Assembly (NCBI RefSeq): GCF_003201675.2
Contig: NZ_CP029287.2
Span: forward strand, 372,001-436,000
Reading direction: 5' to 3'
Source: Metallosphaera hakonensis JCM 8857 = DSM 7519
GTDB taxonomy: Archaea > Thermoproteota > Thermoprotei_A > Sulfolobales > Sulfolobaceae
Length of the DNA stretch: 64,000 nt
Shown: one piece after another, positions 36,278 through 47,887 of the stretch
Numbering within the stretch: the first letter of the stretch is position 1
Layout: each line of letters begins with the position of its first letter
Program-made: the position numbers and the translations under genes
The notes under the pieces: generated by a model
The model's database searches: none
Seen by the model: the letters and a program-made list of their open reading frames with translations, nothing else
What the model was told of the DNA's origin: nothing

Positions 36278-37858
36278 TCACTTCCCAACGTACTTATCGG
36301 CCCTGAAGATCACGTCCTGAACCTTTAGGGAGAAGGTCCGGAGAACACCGTACCCCGGAGGAGAGGCCTGAAGCGTCTCAGTGTAGTCCCCCATTCCTAT
36401 CCTCTCCAAGGCATCCTCGTCAGCTCTCATGGCTACCTTTGTGTTGGAGAGCGTTAGGATTAGGTCGTTGAGGTCAGTGGGCCTATGGGTGGCCAGAATC
36501 GTGCCGATCCCCCTAACCCTCCCTAGCCTCATGATCCTGTTAATTAGCCTCTCCAAGGCCTCCTTTTCCTCGTCTCCCTTCCTTGACTGCGGGAAGTACT
36601 CATGGGCCTCGTCAAATATTAGAAGGAAAGGAGTCTCCCTCCCGCTCTCCTTGTACGCAGAATCGATCACCCTGAATATCCTGTTGGCTATAATGAAGGC
36701 TGCGGTTGTAGCTGACGAAACTCCCTTCTCCAGTACCCATCTCAGGTCTACCACGCTCTTCTCACGAAGGAGTTGATCGTAATCGGGTTCGCTTAACCTG
36801 TTTCCTCCCATCTCCACGTCTAAGATGCCGCTCTCCCTTAGAAGGGTTACAGACCTCAGTATGTTGTCCACGGTGGATTTATGCAAGTTGTAGTGGTCTA
36901 GGACGTCTCCACACTCCTCTATCCACGAGTCTATGTCGGTGAGGCAATTATCCGTCGCGATCCTGAAGAAGTGGGCCCCTTGCCCAGAGAAGAAAGGAGA
37001 CGTCTCTGGGATCAACTGATACGTGTCCTCAAGTCTGAAACCCATGAGCTCCAGATTGAAGGTCCTCTCCCCGTCACTGAGCCTGAACCTCCTCTCCCTC
37101 TGTTCCACAATTCTGAAGTTCGAAAGGTTGGACCTCCTCAGGAATTCCTGAACGAAGTCGGTGACCTTATCCCCACTACTCCTGGGAACCGGTACCAGGA
37201 CTGTCCCTCCTTCCCTGGCCATTAACCCAACGTAGTCCCCCTGAATGTCGTATACCATAAGGGGAACATCGCTCCTGGTTATCATCACCTTGAGGAAGTT
37301 AGTCTTTCCAGCCCCCGTCGTCCCAACAACCAGGACGTGATGCCTCAGGGTTTCAAGGGAGAGGGAGACCGGCACGTCCAGAACCCTGTAACCCTCAGTG
37401 AGTTTCCCGATCTCGATCCCCTGGTCCGGGAGTCCCAACATCTTGGAGATGAACTCCCTGTTGGGTATGAAGACCGGGCTCTGGGGATCAACGGGCGAAC
37501 TCACGGGAACCACCTCTCCCTCTACCTCTTCAGAGAGGAGCTGGATTATCAAGGTCAGGGGAGTAGTGAAACCCGAGGTGTCCTCCACTGGTGAGAGGGC
37601 GGGAATCCTCGAGATCGCCATTATGTCGGCCCTCTCGACCCCAGTTATCCTCCCCAGAACCAATGTTTTAGAAACGGGAAGCGCAATCCCTATGTAGCTC
37701 CCCACCAGGAACCTCTTTCTCAGGTAGACCTCGAAGGGGACCTCTGCCCTGATCTCCTTGTGGTCTATCCCGTGGGAGATAGGGGAGACCCTAGTCGCTA
37801 GCCCTACGACTTCGCCCGCTTGACTTGCCCTTGCCTTAGCCTCCTCTACAAGACTCAT
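36278..37858 (-). CDS. herA: HerA-like DNA translocase ATPase
   Basis: 526 residues: an N-terminal HAS-barrel-like domain (residues about 1-150), Walker A VGTTGAGKT at 178-186, Walker B FLLIFDEAHEYF at 411-422, followed by RLGRVRGIGTILATHRPTDL and the arginine-finger region. This is the HerA/FtsK-type hexameric DNA pump that works with NurA in DNA end resection. The gene overlaps the preceding nurA by 4 bp (ATGA), so the two are translationally coupled. It is not next to mre11-rad50, which suggests a second, accessory HerA-NurA pair. Confidence 0.92.
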   Translation of the reverse strand: MSLVEEAKARASQAGEVVGLATRVSPISHGIDHKEIRAEVPFEVYLRKRFLVGSYIGIALPVSKTLVLGRITGVERADIMAISRIPALSPVEDTSGFTTPLTLIIQLLSEEVEGEVVPVSSPVDPQSPVFIPNREFISKMLGLPDQGIEIGKLTEGYRVLDVPVSLSLETLRHHVLVVGTTGAGKTNFLKVMITRSDVPLMVYDIQGDYVGLMAREGGTVLVPVPRSSGDKVTDFVQEFLRRSNLSNFRIVEQRERRFRLSDGERTFNLELMGFRLEDTYQLIPETSPFFSGQGAHFFRIATDNCLTDIDSWIEECGDVLDHYNLHKSTVDNILRSVTLLRESGILDVEMGGNRLSEPDYDQLLREKSVVDLRWVLEKGVSSATTAAFIIANRIFRVIDSAYKESGRETPFLLIFDEAHEYFPQSRKGDEEKEALERLINRIMRLGRVRGIGTILATHRPTDLNDLILTLSNTKVAMRADEDALERIGMGDYTETLQASPPGYGVLRTFSLKVQDVIFRADKYVGK

Positions 37859-38868
37859 GACGAGGTCACCTCTAGATCAAGAGTGGCCAATTTAAGCCTA
37901 TTCCACTCGTCGTAGGTAACACCCAACTTGGAGTGGGCGTGAATGAAGGACAGGAGGTAAACCGATGCCCCTAGTTTCCTGGAGATCGAGTCCGCGACCT
38001 CAATGAAGTCAGGTATCCCTCGGTAGGACGCATGACGGATAGCGGTGGAGACTCCAGAACACAGGAGGTCCTGGGACACGCTCTCGACCCTGAATACCGA
38101 GTCCCTGACCTTAACGTAAACCATATACCTGGTCAAGGTAGACGAGGAGAGATGGAAGTCCTCCCTGAGGACGGGGGTGACGTACCTCTCCCTACCTCTC
38201 CCCAACTCCAGGGTTACGACATCGTCTGTGAATCCCTTCTCTCCCTTCCATAGCTCGCTCCTCTGCAACTTCCTGCTCATGTTCAACCTCTTCACTATCC
38301 CCACCAGGTTCTCGGTTCTCCTCTCCCTGATCAGGGACTCATAGGCCGAGCGGTAGGGTTCTCCCACGACCGGGAGATAGGGACCGGGGAAAACCGGGCC
38401 GTCAATTATGGCCCTCCTGGACTTGGAGATGGCCACGTTCTCAAGGGATATCCTGAGTTCGTCCAGTATGTTGTCGTCCTTATAACCTGCGTCGTAGGGG
38501 ACGCCGTTCACGTTCTTAGTTCTCACGAAACGTGAAAGGGGAGAGCTTTCCACCTCAGATATTACCTCCCCAGAACCTTTTATGGCCAGGAAAGGGTAGG
38601 AAGTGTCCACAGGGACGGTCAAGTGAACTCCTTCCAAGTTCGCGTATAGTGAGGCCATGTAAACGTTGGCTCCCCTCACCGAGATAACCCTGGAAGAGGA
38701 GTCCAGATAGGAGAACCACGGGAGAGGATCGCACTCTTCCAGATCTTCCGCAACTTCTACGGGCTCCGCGTCCTCGGGCTCGGACAAGGAAACTCCAAGG
38801 AATGGCTTATTCCTAGCAACCTTGGAGAGTAGGGTGGTCAATTGGTCTATGACCTCATGTACCTCCAA
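37855..38868 (-). CDS. nurA: NurA-domain nuclease
   Basis: 337 residues with the NurA start of the catalytic core, WFSYLDSSSRVI, where D56 is the expected metal-binding Asp, and a later VYVKVRDSVFRVE and ASYRGIPDFIEVADSISRK region in the usual order. NurA is a 5'-3' exonuclease/endonuclease that sits on the HerA ring. Located 23 bp after csa3 and overlapping herA, it is the middle gene of an apparent operon csa3-nurA-herA. Confidence 0.88.
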   Translation of the reverse strand: MEVHEVIDQLTTLLSKVARNKPFLGVSLSEPEDAEPVEVAEDLEECDPLPWFSYLDSSSRVISVRGANVYMASLYANLEGVHLTVPVDTSYPFLAIKGSGEVISEVESSPLSRFVRTKNVNGVPYDAGYKDDNILDELRISLENVAISKSRRAIIDGPVFPGPYLPVVGEPYRSAYESLIRERRTENLVGIVKRLNMSRKLQRSELWKGEKGFTDDVVTLELGRGRERYVTPVLREDFHLSSSTLTRYMVYVKVRDSVFRVESVSQDLLCSGVSTAIRHASYRGIPDFIEVADSISRKLGASVYLLSFIHAHSKLGVTYDEWNRLKLATLDLEVTSS

Positions 38869-39524: not shown

Positions 39525-39924
39525 GAGGTAATTACTTCACCACGATAAATAAGCACTTCGTCCAGGTAATCTGTCCTGGGAAGTTAAAATGTGGAGATTA
39601 AGGCTTCCCTGCATTGATGTGAAGGAAACGCCATTTTCTGACGAAATGCACAAATGAACCCTGTTACATCGATTGTCGAGTCCTTGAGAGCGTTGGGAAA
39701 ACGATCCTAGAGAAAGCTGTGAGTTACTTGTCCGAGTGCGAAGATATCGGGGGCTCAACAATAACATTTCTCAAGTTCTTGGTCGGAATCGGAGGCCTCA
39801 AGGAATATTTACGGATAGGTTAGGTGAGGCTTCGCCTTCAAAGACGTCAGTTATCATCAATGAAATTCTATTTCGTGGAACAATTCATCGTGATCTACTG
39901 TGCTAGCAGTTCCAGATCCAAGGG

Positions 39925-40125
39925 TTTCTGGGAGTGTTCTCATGCAGTCATCTTATTCGATAACTACCTGTAAAATTATATTAGATGAGCTCTAATATAC
40001 TGTACTCCCCTCAAATAGGCCAGGTTCAAGGGAGTCTCCTCGCTGAAGAAAACATGCGGGTTCATGACGTTCAACAGGGCCAGGCTGTAGTTCGTCATCC
40101 CTCTGCTCCTGTTGACGGCCTTCGT
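39925..40125 (-). pseudogene. 3' fragment of the IS1-type transposase
   Basis: Nearly identical to 33358-33560: the terminal CTGGGAGTGTTCTCATGCAG and the last about 45 codons (NRSRGMTNYSLALLNVMNPH, then LNLAYLRGVQYI). The homology stops abruptly at TTCGT and continues as an R2-like end (TAGTATTTCCGG). A truncated copy. Confidence 0.8.
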
Positions 40126-40179
40126 TAGTATTTCCGGAAAGTTATGAACGCTCAATTTTATCAAGTCCCAAGTATTTTG

Positions 40180-40247
40180 GGACTATCAATTATAGTTGCG
40201 TACTTTACCTGAAAACGACGTTTCTTACACATCTATACACGGAAGCC
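40180..40247 (-). repeat. R1 miniature repeat, copy 4 (inverted)
   Basis: On the minus strand it begins GGCTTCCGTGTATAGATGTG and ends near AGTCCC. It forms an inverted pair with copy 5, 0.75 kb away. Confidence 0.68.
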
Positions 40248-40734
40248 TCATTCTCCCTCACCTTAACGTCCTTTTCCATCTCGCAAGCCCCTACTAAATT
40301 TTCTGTTCTTCTAGATCATTACAGAACGTTTTAAACTTTTCGGAAGTACTAACGTTAGATGTTAGTGTTTAAGGAAATCCTTGGAGGAATCAACGCAAGG
40401 AGTTCCATCCAGTTCGTCACCTAAGGACTTCTGATATCTACCTACGGAGTTATTTTCCTTAAGGGGTTCGAGATAGCCTTACATAGAAGGAGAGCGTCAC
40501 TATCCTCTACTAAATATCCTCCTAGTATTTTGTGAATCTATTCAATTTTCCTAGATGTTAAGCTCCTGGGTTTATCTTGAATTCGAATCGCTCATAGATT
40601 TAAAAGTAAGTTTGACGTTGACCTTGATAAAAATTTGAAGTAATCAACAAAGTGTTTGATAGGAGTCTGGGACAAAAAGCTTAGATGCCTCTTATTTTGT
40701 ATTATGAACCCACGAATAAGAAGTTAAACCCAGA

Positions 40735-40988
40735 AGGATTTCCATAACTTCAAGGAGTCCATAGGGGATTTGATCAAGCTGCACAAGGAGAGTAGGCTCG
40801 GCAAGGAGAGCCCTGAAGAGAGCGAGGACGAGAGGTCGGAAAGGTTGAGGAGGTTCGGTCAGGAGCTGAAGGAGTTGGAGGATGTGAAGTTCGTGAAAGT
40901 CAGGGAAGGGCTAGGGAGGAGGCGCCACGCACTTCGTCTCTGACGAACCGGAGCGTGGCACTGACGTCAATTTTCTGCCACCGTAGGA
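40735..40988 (+). pseudogene. Unidentified ORF fragment ending in the R3 sequence
   Basis: Coding-like run FHNFKESIGDLIKLHKESRL then RLRRFGQELKELEDVKFV; after a frame change it reads GGATHFVSDEPERGTDVNFL-PP-stop. The last part matches the terminus at 26643. Two different mobile-element remnants may be joined here. Confidence 0.4.
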
Positions 40989-41002
40989 CGAGCAAGCTAG
41001 GA

Positions 41003-41069
41003 GGATTCCATGTATAGATGTGTAAGAAACGTTATTTTCAGGTAAAATACACAACTGTACCCGGTAGCC
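41003..41069 (+). repeat. R1 miniature repeat, copy 5
   Basis: GGATTCC start, GGTAGCC end; read inward, the two ends match at GTA-AG-TGTGTA. It is the cleanest copy for defining the family ends. Confidence 0.7.
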
Positions 41070-41079
41070 CCACTACAGT

Positions 41080-41400
41080 AAGTCCACACTCGACGAGTTC
41101 CCGGACTCCACGGTCTACCTGATACCTAAATCCAACATGATTAAGGGAGGGAAGAAGTGGAGGGATATGATAGTGCGGTTCATGAGGAACCCCCTTGACT
41201 ATCTTCACGAGTACTTCAAGCTGGAGAATAAGTCCCTAATCTCCTCCATAAAGAGGACGACCAGATCATAAACAAGGTTCGTGAGGAGAGGATACACTAG
41301 TGTTTCTGACAAGTTCTCAGCTAGGGACAAGAGATGTCTAGGTCAAATACCTACCGGAAACACTAACCTAACGGTGCCGACGAAGGTTGTGATCCACAAC
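41080..41400 (+). pseudogene. Transposase fragment interrupted by R2
   Basis: Reads STLDEFPDSTVYLIPKSNMI then RFMRNPLDYLHEYFKLEN and SLISSIKRTTRS-stop, parallel to 3780-4020. After GGATACAC the R2 element is inserted; beyond it the homology resumes with CTAACGGTGC. Confidence 0.6.
41298..41365 (+). repeat. R2 68-bp miniature element, copy 2 (insertion proven by empty site)
   Basis: TAGTGTTTC at one end and GAAACACTA at the other are perfect 9-bp inverted repeats, with AC duplicated on both sides (41296-41297, 41366-41367). The paralogous sequence on the minus strand at 3780-4020 lacks exactly these 68 bp plus one AC. Confidence 0.85.
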
Positions 41401-41450
41401 TCAATCTGGTCTAAGTCGTTAGATTAAAAATCCCGAAACACTATTCCTAC

Positions 41451-43355
41451 TTGGGACTGCTGGACCTAATTTGTCCCAGACCCGCCGGGCTAGTGAAGCT
41501 TATTAATTCCACGGCTCCTTTAACTCCCATGTCATTGAACCAAAAGGTCCAACAATGCCTCTTGGATTACCTCAAAGCAGTAGACCTAGATCTGTTAAGG
41601 GACGAATTGACATTGCACGCCACATACGCTCAAAATGAGGGACTGTACCAGGTCTTCCTGAATTCCGATGACCTCAGGGTTAGAGAGAACGCGTGGTGGT
41701 TCTTCATTACCTCAGCAGATAACGATCAGATAAAGTCCCGTATGGACATGCTCCTGGAAACCCTCGACAGGGGGGCAGACCTCTGGCCCGAGGTCATGAA
41801 TTTGGTTGACAAGGGAGTACTCAACAAGAGAGATATCCTTCCCTTCTTTAAGCACCAGAACCATAAGGTAAGAATTGGGCCGTGGAGATATGTGAAGAGC
41901 GGGAGAATAACCCAGGCTGACCTTAAGCCCTTCCTTGGCTACTTCATTGAACTCCTCAAGTCCAACGACCTCGAAGTGAGGGCCAAGGCGTGGTCTCAAA
42001 TTTCCAGACTCGACGAGCTGAGGATCATGAAAAAGGAAGAAAGCGGAAAATACAAGTCCTACCTCGAGGAGGTGTTCAAGGACGACAGATTCCTCAACGA
42101 CCTTGAGGGCACCTATCTGGATCTCCTGGACGGGATTACCAGGAAGGACTTCCTCCCGTTCCTATGGAACGGTGATCCCAGGGTAAGGATAGCCACGTGG
42201 TGGATAATCAGTGACTCTCCTAATCTCCTGGAACTCGTGGAGAGGAAGGTTAACGTGATTCTGGACACCATCTCCTACCCTGATCCCAAGTTCAGGGTGA
42301 TCGCGTGGAACGTCATCAAGGACTTGGGAAAGGTCGGCCTCGTGGACAGTAAGAACCTAGACCTTAAGCCCCTTCTTGAACTCCTCAGGGATCCAGATGT
42401 AAACGTGAGACTGTCAGCTTGGGCAGTGGCCACAGCCCTAGCTGAGACTAAGGACCTGAAACCTTACCTCGACGGACTGAGGGAGGTGGTGAGCCGGGAG
42501 GACCTGAAGGAAACTCTGTCCTTCAGCTTGGAGTTGAAACAGATTCTGAGGTCAGGCAAATTACCAAAGGAGGACGTAATCCAGATAATCAAGTTAATCC
42601 CTTTCCAGTTGGTGAACGGGCTCTCGAAACTTTGGGTGGAAGACGTGGAGAAGCTGCTCGTTGAGGGGGATGAGAATATATGGATTCAACTCGAAGGTAT
42701 TAGAAAAGATCGGCGCCAAAGGTCGAGGATTAGATCTAAACTCAAGGGAATTCGAGAGATTACCAGGAGGTTCATGACCCATGAGGACCTGAGACTGAGA
42801 GCGTTAGCATGGTCATATCTCCACAGGTTCCTTTCAAGAAAGGAAGTAACATCGCTCCTGGAACATCTTATATCCCTGCTGACTGCAGGTGATGACAAGA
42901 TAGAGGAGCTGGCCTGGAGCGCAATAATTAAGCTTAATCCCTTCATTGACCGATCACTATGGCAGGGATATTCTAAAAGGACATTGAGTAAGCTTGAGAG
43001 CCTGTGGTCAATCGCTCTCACTCTCCTGAAACTGAAGGTTCTTTCCCCCTCCGACTTCTTGGAGGTCAAGGAGAAGGTGATAGAGGTAGCGAAGAGTAAG
43101 CTGGTGACGTCCGATGACGTGGAAATGTTGGTAAAGGAAAATATAATTAGCATGGACGACCTCTGGAGGATAGTGATGGAGACCCAGTACCACGAAGTAG
43201 TGATCGCCGTAGGGATGGCTTATCCTTCAGTCTTTGCAGGCAAAGTTAACGAAAGTGTGGACATACTTCTAAGACATTGGGATAAAGAGAACGTGGACTT
43301 AATGGACATTACACTTTTCATTATGCTACGTGTAATGTACGGAGAGCCCTCATAG
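41451..43355 (+). CDS. HEAT-repeat protein of unknown function
   Basis: 634 residues built of repeated two-helix units with the consensus (D/N)xx(V/L)RxxAWxxI: LRVRENAWWFF, HKVRIGPWRYV, LEVRAKAWSQI, PRVRIATWWII, PKFRVIAWNVI, VNVRLSAWAVA, LRLRALAWSYL, DKIEELAWSAI. Such alpha-solenoids bind proteins or nucleic acids; there is no catalytic motif. Start: TTG 41451 lies 26 bp after GATTAAAAA; ATG 41529 is an alternative. Two inverted R2 elements bracket the gene, and a crRNA-like relic begins 2 bp after its stop. It lies between the I-B and type III modules, next to the 816-aa repeat protein. Confidence 0.75.
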   Translation: MGLLDLICPRPAGLVKLINSTAPLTPMSLNQKVQQCLLDYLKAVDLDLLRDELTLHATYAQNEGLYQVFLNSDDLRVRENAWWFFITSADNDQIKSRMDMLLETLDRGADLWPEVMNLVDKGVLNKRDILPFFKHQNHKVRIGPWRYVKSGRITQADLKPFLGYFIELLKSNDLEVRAKAWSQISRLDELRIMKKEESGKYKSYLEEVFKDDRFLNDLEGTYLDLLDGITRKDFLPFLWNGDPRVRIATWWIISDSPNLLELVERKVNVILDTISYPDPKFRVIAWNVIKDLGKVGLVDSKNLDLKPLLELLRDPDVNVRLSAWAVATALAETKDLKPYLDGLREVVSREDLKETLSFSLELKQILRSGKLPKEDVIQIIKLIPFQLVNGLSKLWVEDVEKLLVEGDENIWIQLEGIRKDRRQRSRIRSKLKGIREITRRFMTHEDLRLRALAWSYLHRFLSRKEVTSLLEHLISLLTAGDDKIEELAWSAIIKLNPFIDRSLWQGYSKRTLSKLESLWSIALTLLKLKVLSPSDFLEVKEKVIEVAKSKLVTSDDVEMLVKENIISMDDLWRIVMETQYHEVVIAVGMAYPSVFAGKVNESVDILLRHWDKENVDLMDITLFIMLRVMYGEPS

Positions 43356-43357
43356 AA

Positions 43358-43439
43358 GCCTGTAGAGTTCCTTAGAGGGTTTAAAACCTGATGATGGGAG
43401 AAAGATCTTCTTGTGTTGTAATTTCGTTTGTAGGGTTCC
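43358..43439 (+). CRISPR. One-spacer CRISPR relic (repeat - 38-nt spacer - half repeat)
   Basis: 43358-43387 matches the array repeat in crRNA orientation at about 26 of 30 positions (start GCCTGTAGAG instead of GTTTGTAGGG; end GGTTTAAAAC). It is followed by a 38-nt spacer-like sequence (43388-43425, typical length), then GTTTGTAGGGTTCC, the first 14 nt of a second repeat. An R2 element begins 2 bp later and may have cut it off. It could be a decayed mini-array or a CreA-like regulatory RNA. Confidence 0.8.
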
Positions 43440-43441
43440 AC

Positions 43442-43509
43442 TAGTGTTTCCAGTAGGTATTTGACCTAGACATCTCTTGTCCCTAACTAAGAACTTGTCA
43501 GAAACACTA
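43442..43509 (-). repeat. R2 68-bp miniature element, copy 3
   Basis: Reverse complement of copy 2 with few changes and the same 68-bp length and TAGTGTTTC/GAAACACTA ends. It lies between the CRISPR relic and the 816-aa protein gene. Confidence 0.8.
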
Positions 43510-43519
43510 ATGTATCCTG

Positions 43520-43596
43520 AGCGATTCTGGTTTCTGTTGTAAATTGTAATTATGACAAAGATAGATTAAATAAAGGAAATTATTAAACACGAATCA
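43520..43596 (+). repeat. R4 dispersed repeat, copy 2
   Basis: TGTAAATTGTAATTATG, AAATAAAGGA and CACGAATCACTAC in the same order as at 11535-11608. It provides part of the upstream region of the next gene. Confidence 0.5.
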
Positions 43597-43669
43597 CTAC
43601 CTGGCCCATTCAGAACATTTAATCACTTTCCCTAACGTTATTATCGAGAAAGTTATCCCATTTATATTA

Positions 43670-46120
43670 ATGGCACCTGTGTTTTACCAAGACAGTGAGA
43701 TTGGAGAGATGTTTCGTAAACTAGGGAGGCAGGGTAGGAGAGAATTCCTAGATATAACTAAGACCGATTGGGACCTAGCGGAGAGGATCGGAGGGAGTTT
43801 GGGCATAGTGTTCCACAAACTAGACGATGAGGGGAGGAGGATGGTGTTGGAGTTGGTAAGGCAAGAATTGAAGGGTGAAGATCTCAGGTTCACTAAGATG
43901 TTTGGGCTGAGTGTAAGTCGAATTTTCCATAGACTAGATAACGAGGGGAGGAGGAGTGTTCTAGAGTTAGCCAGGGAGGATCATAGGTTTGCCTACTGGA
44001 TCTCTCAGGGAATGGGTATCATGTTCCACAAACTAGACGACGAGGGTAGGAGGATGGTGTTGGAGTTGGTAAAGGAGAGCGAAATTTCCGCTGGCATGAT
44101 CGGTTATGGAATGGGGATATTGTTCGCTGAGTCGGACTTAGAAGGGAGGAGGTTAACCATAGATTTAGCTAAGACCAACATGCACTTCGCGCATTGGTTT
44201 TTAGTAAGTTTAAGCAACACGTTTCTCCGGATAGACGAAGATGGTAGGAAAATGGTATTAGAGCTAGCAAAAGAAAGCGAGATTTTGGCCAAGAACATAG
44301 GTTTCTGGTTGGGGCGGTTCTTCCACGAGTTGAGCAGTGAAGAGAAGAGGACAGTGTTGGAGTTGGCAAAGCGAAACGAGGGATTAACCAATGAGATGGG
44401 CCTTTCGGTGGGAAGGTTCTTCCACGAGTTGAGCAGTGAAGAGAAGAGGACAGTGTTGGAGTTGGCAAAGCGAAACCAGAAGTTCGCCCAATGGTTCGGA
44501 TACAGTCTGGGGGAGAGGTTTCACAAACTAGACAATGAGGGGAGGAAAATGGTTCTGGAGTTAGCCAAGGAGAGCGAAAGTTTCGCTGGAGGATTCGGAC
44601 AGAGTATGGGTATCTCATTTCATAAACTAAACGGAGAGGAGAGGAGGTTAATTTTCAATCTGGCTGAAGTTAAAGAGAAATTTGCCGAAAATTTGGGGCT
44701 GGGCCTAAGGGAGTCCTTCAGCGTGCTGAATGAAGAGGAGAGGTCTCACGTCCTAGAGATGGCTAGGATTAATGACCATTTTGCCCAGGGAATTTCACAC
44801 AAATTGGGATTGGCTTTTTACGAGCTAAGCTGGGGGCACAAGAAACTAGTCCTGGATATTGCCAAAGGTAACAATCGCGTGACTGAACTCATTGCCGATG
44901 GAATAGGGTCAGTTTTTCATAAGCTAAATGCAGAAGAGAAACAGTTAGTCCTTGACCTCGCTAAGACCAATGGGGATTTCACCAGGAGTTTAGTAAAGAG
45001 TATGGCAAAGATAATTCATGAACTCGATGAAGATGACAGAAGTTTTCTCTTACAGATAGCAAAGAGCGATAAGAATCTCGCCAAAATTATTTCCATATAC
45101 CTTGGGCGTGGCTTTCATGATCTCAGCAGGGAGCACAAAAAGCTACTCCTGGAGATTGCCAGGACTAACACAGATTTCTATAATATTTCTATAAATGTAG
45201 GAAGAGATTTCAATAATCTCGATAGCAGAATGAGGAAGCTGGTCTTTGACTTGGCGGAGAGCGTAAATGGTTTCGCTTCAGGTCTTGGAGCGGGTATGGG
45301 AGAGATCATCGGGAATCTGAGCTATGAGGAAATATGGGTTGCCCTGGAGAAGGCTAAGGTAAACGTCAGCTTCGCTAGGGGTATTTCTTTTGGCCTGGGT
45401 AAAGGATTCGATGAACTAAGTAATAGGCAGAGGGAGGTAGTCTTGGAGATGGTCAAGTCAGACAAGGAATTCGCTAGATCATTTGGACGAGGTATGGGAA
45501 CCGTGTTCTACGAACTTAACTCCAGGGATAGGGAGTTGGTGACGCGAATAGCTGAGAGTAACCCGGAGTTCGCTGGGGGTTTGGGACTAGGAGTGGGAGG
45601 AGTGTTTCACCATCTCACCCGAGAGGAGGATAGGAGGCAGGCCCTTGATTGGGTTAACACTAGCCCAGAGTTCGCTAAGGAGTTCGGAGATACTTTGGAA
45701 AATACGTTTCCCTTGGTCTCCCTTGAGGACAAGAGGTTGCTGATAGAGATGGCTAAGGTCAAGGAGGAGCTCGTTCAGGGAATCGGAAAAGGATTGGTGA
45801 GGCTGATAAGTTCAAGCTGTAAAGAGGACTCGTTAAGTTCGACCTGTGGAAAGAGTATGAAGTTGTTTTTGGACGCGATTAAGATTAACCCACAGATAGC
45901 CCGAATCGCCGGCCGTGAAATAGTGACTGAATTACGGAATTTGAGCAGAGAGAGGAGGAAGGCTATCCTGGAGATGGCTAAGGAAAATAGGGATTTCGCA
46001 GAGGGATTGGGTGAAGGGTTAGCTGAATTTTCCAATAATCTAAATGAGGAAATTAAGAAGGAACTTCTAGAACAGGGTATACCTCTTCCTGCCTCAAGTG
46101 AGGAAGGTCAGGAGGAGTGA
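43670..46120 (+). CDS. 816-aa protein of about 23 tandem 33-residue repeats
   Basis: Almost the whole protein is a repeat with the pattern FAxxxGxxxGxxFHxLxxExRRxVLELAKxN: for example FHKLDDEGRRMVLELVKESE, FHELSSEEKRTVLELAKRNE, FHDLSREHKKLLLEIARTNT, FYELNSRDRELVTRIAESNP. Each unit predicts one amphipathic helix (xxRRxVLELAK) and one Gly-rich helix (FAxxxGxxxG). Two neighbouring units share about 60 identical bases (44319-44378 and 44418-44477), indicating recent duplication. There is no signal peptide or catalytic motif. I do not recognise the family; an alpha-solenoid scaffold or an oligomerising GxxxG array is possible. It is encoded alone, between Csx1 and the HEAT protein. Confidence 0.75.
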   Translation: MAPVFYQDSEIGEMFRKLGRQGRREFLDITKTDWDLAERIGGSLGIVFHKLDDEGRRMVLELVRQELKGEDLRFTKMFGLSVSRIFHRLDNEGRRSVLELAREDHRFAYWISQGMGIMFHKLDDEGRRMVLELVKESEISAGMIGYGMGILFAESDLEGRRLTIDLAKTNMHFAHWFLVSLSNTFLRIDEDGRKMVLELAKESEILAKNIGFWLGRFFHELSSEEKRTVLELAKRNEGLTNEMGLSVGRFFHELSSEEKRTVLELAKRNQKFAQWFGYSLGERFHKLDNEGRKMVLELAKESESFAGGFGQSMGISFHKLNGEERRLIFNLAEVKEKFAENLGLGLRESFSVLNEEERSHVLEMARINDHFAQGISHKLGLAFYELSWGHKKLVLDIAKGNNRVTELIADGIGSVFHKLNAEEKQLVLDLAKTNGDFTRSLVKSMAKIIHELDEDDRSFLLQIAKSDKNLAKIISIYLGRGFHDLSREHKKLLLEIARTNTDFYNISINVGRDFNNLDSRMRKLVFDLAESVNGFASGLGAGMGEIIGNLSYEEIWVALEKAKVNVSFARGISFGLGKGFDELSNRQREVVLEMVKSDKEFARSFGRGMGTVFYELNSRDRELVTRIAESNPEFAGGLGLGVGGVFHHLTREEDRRQALDWVNTSPEFAKEFGDTLENTFPLVSLEDKRLLIEMAKVKEELVQGIGKGLVRLISSSCKEDSLSSTCGKSMKLFLDAIKINPQIARIAGREIVTELRNLSRERRKAILEMAKENRDFAEGLGEGLAEFSNNLNEEIKKELLEQGIPLPASSEEGQEE

Positions 46121-46459: not shown

Positions 46460-47887
46460 CTATCTTACTTCCTCAGAGGAGGATAGGCCTTTCTTCGAAT
46501 TACTTTCAATTCTGTTTATTACTTTGTCAACCTTGTTGCCTAAGTCCTTAATTAGATCTTCTATACTTTTCCTTTTCAACGTATTGCCCACGTTTAGTCT
46601 ACCCTCACCGTCCACGCTTACCTTAAGGTCCTCCGATAGTCCTCCATGCATCAATATATTCCTATATTGTATGATAGCGTTTTGCTCCTCGCCGTAATAG
46701 TTTGTTACAAGGTTCTTACACTCTTCGTACTCATTCCCCTTCACTTCCTTGGCATTCCCTTGGGAATTGTTCCCCTCTTGAGACTTCTTTTCAAAGGTCC
46801 CACCTCCGCGGAATTTCAAGCAAAAGGCCACTGGAAGTTCTCTAGCTAAAGATAAAGCCTTATCGTAAAGTTTTGCCTTAACGTAAAGGTCTAAGAGGTG
46901 CCTCAAGACGCTAAGATCGTCTGTCCTCCCGAGGATATCCTCAACCTTTAACGTTGAGTAAAAGTGAGGTAATACTATCTCCTTGACATCGAGGTCTGGG
47001 TTGTTGCTCCAGTCTATGAAGTGGGAGGTGAGTTTTCGCGTGTCGCCTTTGAGTTCCTGAACTCTGAGGCTTACGTCTTTCATGGCCTTTATAGCGTTGA
47101 CAGTGAAACCGTTTCTTATGTTCCACAGTAGGTCTATTATCATGCCTGGTTCCGAACCTTTAATTCTGGAGATGAGTTCCCTTTTATCCTTAAAGTTGTT
47201 GGGATTAAGTTTTTCTAAATTACTCTTGTAGTCCCTAAAGTACCTCTCGTCAAGCATCTCTATGGACGAAGCGATCATGAGCGAGTCCCTCATGGCCTCC
47301 ACTAGTTCGGTAAGCTCAACGACCTTGACTTTACTATTCCTTTCTGGAGGACCCATGACTGGCGCAGAATAGAAGGTGGAGTTAAATAGGGAACCTGCGG
47401 TCAATAGGGCAGTGGTCAAGACGTTAGTTCCGTGAGTTAGATCGATTATATAACTGTCGCAGGAATAATCCTGCAAGATAGAGTATATCACGTTGAAGAT
47501 GAATACCGCGCCTCTGTCCTTGCTGTAGGGTATAGTTGGTTTAGTATCTTTAATTTCACCGTTTTCACCTTTAAATGCCTTAGCTATTCCCGCATTTGGA
47601 ATCGGGTAGATCTCGAGCTTGTTAATAAAGGACTTGATATCATCCAGTTGTTCGAAATTAATATTCCTGGCTTGGAAGAGGATCATATTTTTATAGGCCT
47701 TCTTGACGTTTTCCCAGTCAGAATCCTGTATTAAGCTATCCGGTAACAGTGTTACTACTCTGTCGGGGTTGAAAGCTTTATAAAGTGCGTGTGCAGCGAA
47801 GAAGGTTCGTATTTCCTTATCATGGATCACGTAATCCACTACCTGATAATTCATCAGGTTGCCGGCGATGTAAAACAGGCAGTTCAT
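46460..47887 (-). CDS. csx1: Csx1, CARF-HEPN ribonuclease of type III signalling
   Basis: 475 residues. N-terminal CARF domain with the ligand-loop motif DLTHGTN at 149-155 (preceded by YSCDSYIID). The C-terminal HEPN domain has the catalytic R-x4-H, R409-NILM-H414. Csx1 is a nonspecific RNase activated by cyclic tetra-adenylate from Cas10. A linker of about 60 polar residues near 355-390 (GGGTFEKKSQEGNNSQGN) is unusual. Its ATG overlaps the TGA of the small ORF upstream by ATGA, so it is the last gene of a minus-strand operon beginning at 49427. Confidence 0.92.
   Translation of the reverse strand: MNCLFYIAGNLMNYQVVDYVIHDKEIRTFFAAHALYKAFNPDRVVTLLPDSLIQDSDWENVKKAYKNMILFQARNINFEQLDDIKSFINKLEIYPIPNAGIAKAFKGENGEIKDTKPTIPYSKDRGAVFIFNVIYSILQDYSCDSYIIDLTHGTNVLTTALLTAGSLFNSTFYSAPVMGPPERNSKVKVVELTELVEAMRDSLMIASSIEMLDERYFRDYKSNLEKLNPNNFKDKRELISRIKGSEPGMIIDLLWNIRNGFTVNAIKAMKDVSLRVQELKGDTRKLTSHFIDWSNNPDLDVKEIVLPHFYSTLKVEDILGRTDDLSVLRHLLDLYVKAKLYDKALSLARELPVAFCLKFRGGGTFEKKSQEGNNSQGNAKEVKGNEYEECKNLVTNYYGEEQNAIIQYRNILMHGGLSEDLKVSVDGEGRLNVGNTLKRKSIEDLIKDLGNKVDKVINRIESNSKKGLSSSEEVR

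Follow-up and report, generated by a model that had tools for sequence, protein, structure and literature searches.

STAND anti-viral NTPases such as Avs are built from an effector, an NTPase and a solenoid sensor; to our knowledge, sensing by archaeal STANDs is poorly described. Solenoids are also formed by HEAT-repeat proteins (PF02985, PF13646), including the alphaRep scaffolds, class III cyclases are found in Pycsar, among others, and HerA and NurA form a pair associated with type III CRISPR systems. We compared with these systems two adjacent genes of the archaeon Metallosphaera hakonensis, one encoding a HEAT-repeat protein of 634 residues and the other a protein of 816 residues composed of 33-residue repeats. 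Both lie in the stretch of 64,000 nucleotides that we analysed (contig NZ_CP029287.2, positions 372,001 to 436,000; hereafter the window, to which coordinates without a locus number refer). A sequence-only reading of this DNA had proposed that the two proteins constitute a new defence system and that they lie alone between a type I-B and a type III CRISPR module.

The location was correctly given, as the I-B genes for Cas1b, Cas8b, Csh2, Cas5b and Cas3 are upstream of the pair and those for Csx1, Cas6, Cas10 and Crn1 downstream, but the pair has further neighbours. Upstream are genes for an archaeal ATPase of family PF01637 (34948-36108, plus strand), HerA and NurA of the kind termed "Type III coevolved" by PADLOC (36278-38868, minus strand) and Csa3, and the gene for Csx1, a CARF protein (46460-47887, minus strand), is convergent with the 816-residue protein gene and directly follows it. 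We treat HerA-NurA and Csx1 as context only; the ATPase, 5.3 kb from the HEAT gene, would be a purely hypothetical NTPase partner in trans. The approximately 1.9 kb at 39525-41450 hold no convincing gene and include inverted repeats (40178-40249 and 41001-41072); this segment looks like IS debris.

The first gene of the pair (41451-43355, plus strand) is an intact open reading frame and does encode a HEAT protein, with scores above the Pfam cut-offs for PF02985 (34.2 bits, cut-off 23.5) and PF13646 (29.4 bits, cut-off 27.7) and about 10 detectable units carrying a VRxxAW signature. The annotated TTG start, which gives 634 residues, is doubtful because the only full-length relative aligns from codon 27 and the predicted model is disordered before that codon; translation probably begins at the ATG at 41529, giving 608 residues. 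Searches of Pfam, NCBIfam and PADLOC found no domain besides HEAT. The predicted structure, of moderate confidence (pLDDT 76), is an alpha-solenoid whose nearest folds are PP2A-A and karyopherins, including importin-beta, and the protein's profile also matches alphaRep designs. It differs from these HEAT-repeat proteins in its large size and in belonging to a Sulfolobales VRxxAW subtype. A search with a HEAT-unit model, built from this protein and its full-length relative, showed that the same subtype also makes up many small proteins of 150-250 residues and is hence not specific to STANDs. Searches of plasmids and viral contigs with the HEAT protein found nothing.

The second gene (43670-46120, plus strand) is likewise intact. 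The sequence-only reading had counted about 23 units of 33 residues; our unit model detects 22, with the consensus L[DS]xEx[RK][RK]xVLELAKxNxxFAxxiGxxLGxxFH[EK], at an exact spacing of 33 residues over most of the length, and the period is confirmed by an identity of 0.286 at offset 33 versus about 0.10 at other offsets. The repeats run almost from end to end, and the predicted model (mean pLDDT 86) is a single continuous alpha-solenoid superhelix of regular helix pairs. Its nearest folds, at low TM-scores, are CAND1 and karyopherin solenoids. A possible likeness of the 33-34 residue unit to TALE repeats was rejected; the fold search ranked karyopherins and CAND1 at the top. The variable positions of the unit include 17, 18, 21, 22, 25 and 29, which we take to form a single exposed face on helix B. 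Since duplicated units are still nearly identical at the DNA level, the growth of the array looks recent. Scattered matches in Pfam and NCBIfam (DUF2582, SdpR, aat and others) come from unrelated families matched piecemeal by the repeats and were discarded as artefacts, and the view that the family is unrecognised is borne out within Pfam, NCBIfam, PADLOC and PHROGs. Searches of phages, plasmids and viral contigs with this protein returned nothing, a viral fold library yielded weak matches only (DUF4116 proteins and other solenoids), and a literature search of incomplete coverage retrieved no paper recognisably about the family. Neither window protein matches a P-loop or STAND NTPase family, and no effector domain was found in either with Pfam, NCBIfam or PADLOC; the earlier observation that both lack a catalytic motif agrees with the fact that no catalytic family fits either of them.

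Might these two solenoids work together as a dedicated two-protein defence system? Their adjacency and common orientation between the I-B and type III modules would suit such a system, which we nevertheless consider very unlikely. The 314 bp gap between the genes is occupied by a CRISPR relic and a MITE-like element, making an operon unlikely. The relic includes a degenerate repeat (43358-43387, minus strand, opposite to the arrays) that matches 26 of the 30 bases of the repeat of the local arrays, GTTTCAAACCCTCTAAGGAACCCTACAAAC, whereas the best match in 200 shuffles had 9 mismatches. There follow a 38-nt spacer relic (43388-43425) and 14 perfectly matching bases of a second repeat (43426-43439), also on the minus strand, before the relic is interrupted by a copy of the dispersed repeat R2. 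This relic had been recognised before, and its spacer gave no exact viral match. Two R2 elements had also been placed between the genes; only one is intergenic (43423-43518, minus strand), and the other precedes the HEAT gene and has the inverse orientation (41289-41384, plus strand). R2 has a core of about 70 bp and, being short, dispersed and multi-copy, is MITE-like. We counted about 40 copies in its own genome, none in five sampled congeners and one partial copy in another genome (G167); given its copy number in the own genome, R2 was rejected as a component of a system. Rfam had no match in the window.

The distribution of the genes also speaks against a two-protein system and largely refutes it. 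In the order, 197 genomes were compared, and the two genes occur together in that of the window alone. Homologues of the two proteins are scattered apart from each other, and relatives of the 816-residue protein in one genus lie outside defence loci, the outcome that the sequence-only reading had itself named as refuting its proposal; we conclude that the two genes do not form a conserved system. A single full-length relative of the HEAT protein was found (in genome G084; 32% identity over about 600 residues). Weak relatives of the 816-residue protein occur in nine further genomes, each belonging to one of two genera of the family, of which one is Candidatus Aramenus (Sulfolobaceae). A scan of genome contigs named only Candidatus Aramenus when the family of these relatives was used as the query, and found nothing when the 816-residue protein was used. 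The nearest relatives are stand-alone genes of about 445 codons, present in all nine genomes. In one genus (g4), five such genes share the same set of transporter and metabolic neighbours; they evolve like these housekeeping neighbours, with identities between close species of 89-91% versus 84-98% for the neighbours. A short paralogue in G175 is a fragment of 100 residues with three 33-mer-like units (L052, 9258-9560).

Because the nearest relatives of the 816-residue protein stand alone in metabolic synteny, a sensing role is not required for that protein, and housekeeping function is the strongest rival to any reading in terms of sensors. The 816-residue protein would then be a repeat-expanded paralogue of the Sulfolobaceae 445-residue gene; the HEAT protein would belong, as a large representative, to a common Sulfolobales HEAT group; and both would have been moved into the island by IS-driven rearrangement and would lack a role in defence. 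This explanation is consistent with the conserved non-defence synteny and housekeeping rates of the relatives, with the abundance of small HEAT proteins of this subtype, with the R2 copies and non-coding debris that fill the flanks, and with the recent look of the array growth. However, the full-length relative of the HEAT protein also has HerA-NurA at a distance of 13 kb and a PF01637 ATPase at 600 bp, and the same repeats occur in NTPases linked to SIR2 and to cyclases, as described below. On balance, we regard a pure housekeeping function as possible but doubtful.

The vicinity of HerA-NurA was considered further. The pair of genes is located a few kb upstream in the window, near the HEAT relative in G084, where HerA is 69% identical to that of the window, and beside a STAND-HEAT fusion in G081. 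Among the close HerA loci that we examined, a HEAT protein is nearby in four (the window, G084, G072 and G081), whereas most have no HEAT neighbour, which also counts against a two-protein system, and the HEAT protein was rejected as a fixed partner of HerA-NurA. In G084, a P-loop protein of 766 residues with a weak nSTAND3 match is also present near the HEAT relative (L055, 62-2362). The recurring ATPase raises the alternative that the solenoids act in trans with the PF01637 ATPase of the island as the sensor arms of an NTPase switch. Such an ATPase is close to the HEAT gene in both G084 and the window, and in G081 a one-protein STAND-HEAT version adjoins NurA-HerA. Nevertheless, each genome has about 15-17 PF01637 matches, so that chance alone is estimated to place one within 1 kb in about 3% of cases and within 6 kb in about 9%. 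The ATPases of the window and G084 share only 28% identity, and that of the window falls outside the STAND family bearing these repeats. A split STAND of this kind therefore seems improbable to us.

It is that STAND family which connects the two repeat types. In G081, a protein of 683 residues (L058, 53-2104) directly adjoins NurA and HerA and consists of a STAND region followed by HEAT repeats; in G167, a SIR2-STAND-HEAT protein of 1439 residues (L153, 9674-13993) is encoded between type III-like RAMP genes and cas3. The HEAT-unit model matches both tails (1.5e-15 for G081 and 2e-9 for G167), with no matches to reversed sequences. A third protein, of 1226 residues in G529, bears the 33-residue repeat; its STAND region is homologous to those of G081 and G167 (E=4e-17 for the latter). 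The homology of the STAND regions together with the matches of the unit models shows that homologous STANDs carry either tail, the 33-mer in G529 or the HEAT subtype of the window in G081 and G167. As both repeat types serve as STAND tails, the two proteins of the window resemble sensor arms detached from STANDs, which lends indirect support to the earlier suggestion that they sense or scaffold. The likeness to Avs is limited to this C-terminal solenoid, since the window proteins have neither NTPase nor effector. The STAND family is also represented in the window genome itself, by a protein of 1652 residues about 1.4 Mb away with a different tail (L204, 7711-12669; C1, approximately 1853710-1858668), in which a hydrophobic stretch precedes the NTPase.

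The 33-residue repeat extends beyond the order. With a 33-mer profile, it was detected in 14 genomes out of 300 from the class to which G518 belongs; judging from gene content, we call this class Nitrososphaeria. For confirmation, a model was built solely from the units of the window protein; it matched the G529 protein with E=1.6e-53 and most of the other Nitrososphaeria NTPases between 1e-16 and 1e-46 (best 2.2e-46), and one weak match to a reversed sequence (7.6e-6) marks the limit of the method. The period of 33 was found in the three long Nitrososphaeria members tested. These proteins share the unit sequence and period of the 816-residue protein and differ from it in that their long members carry an N-terminal P-loop NTPase, the repeat being C-terminal to it.

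Several of these NTPases are associated with class III cyclases. A cyclase model made from three of the long 33-mer proteins and applied to 18 fetched loci detected the domain in 13 proteins from 13 loci. Cyclase and repeat protein are one fusion in L183, L186, L189, L190, L194 and L196; in L184, L185 and L193 the cyclase is encoded by the immediately neighbouring gene, and in L188, L192 and the decayed L198 it is no more than 3 kb away. This gives 12 of the 18 loci with a fused or nearby cyclase; L200 is a weaker and less clear case. One of these cyclases scores on PycC models (E 1.4e-12). The two window proteins differ in this respect: neither contains or adjoins a cyclase or a Pycsar effector. 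The combination of P-loop NTPase, 33-residue solenoid and cyclase, seen for example at L183 (3764-8797), L184 (7283-12825) and L185 (7347-11943) and also at L186, L188-L190, L193, L194 and L196, looks like an undescribed signalling architecture; the proteins of L183 and L184 also have a receiver domain. Because the P-loop NTPases of the cyclase-linked proteins show merely loose similarity to the STAND family of G529 and G167, we use the term STAND-like for them with caution. Two further STAND-like proteins (L191, 7923-10601, and L192, 7300-9987) have a few 33-mer units and an N-terminal nuclease-like stretch, a putative restriction-type PD-(D/E)XK nuclease to judge by its motifs, for which Pfam gave no confirmation.

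Taking the local and distant evidence together, we lean towards the window pair being two independently acquired, stand-alone alpha-solenoid binding proteins, made of the repeat kinds that occur in STAND sensor arms and lying side by side in an island rich in IS elements and CRISPR loci; the metabolic synteny of the 445-residue relatives counts against this reading. Each solenoid would most likely wrap its superhelix around a partner protein. In other proteins, the 33-mer family to which the 816-residue protein belongs is the C-terminal arm of STAND-like NTPases, presumably a ligand-sensing one, and the HEAT protein is made of the subtype used by homologous STANDs in the same C-terminal position, so that both most plausibly act as stand-alone sensor or adaptor solenoids. 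We infer that the window proteins bind proteins and that this binding serves sensing or scaffolding; a role of either in defence is only putative. A bolder version, in which archaeal STANDs swap two solenoid sensors, HEAT and the undescribed 33-mer, and the window proteins, as detached arms of that family, detect invaders in trans and signal to a shared NTPase or to the CRISPR accessory proteins nearby, strikes us as quite unlikely.

In summary, the window pair is probably no system, yet it leads to a repeat family that is absent from Pfam, NCBIfam, PADLOC and PHROGs. This 33-mer family is the tail of archaeal STAND-like NTPases, some of which are apparently wired to class III cyclases, and its members are concrete candidates for testing ligand binding and cyclase switching.
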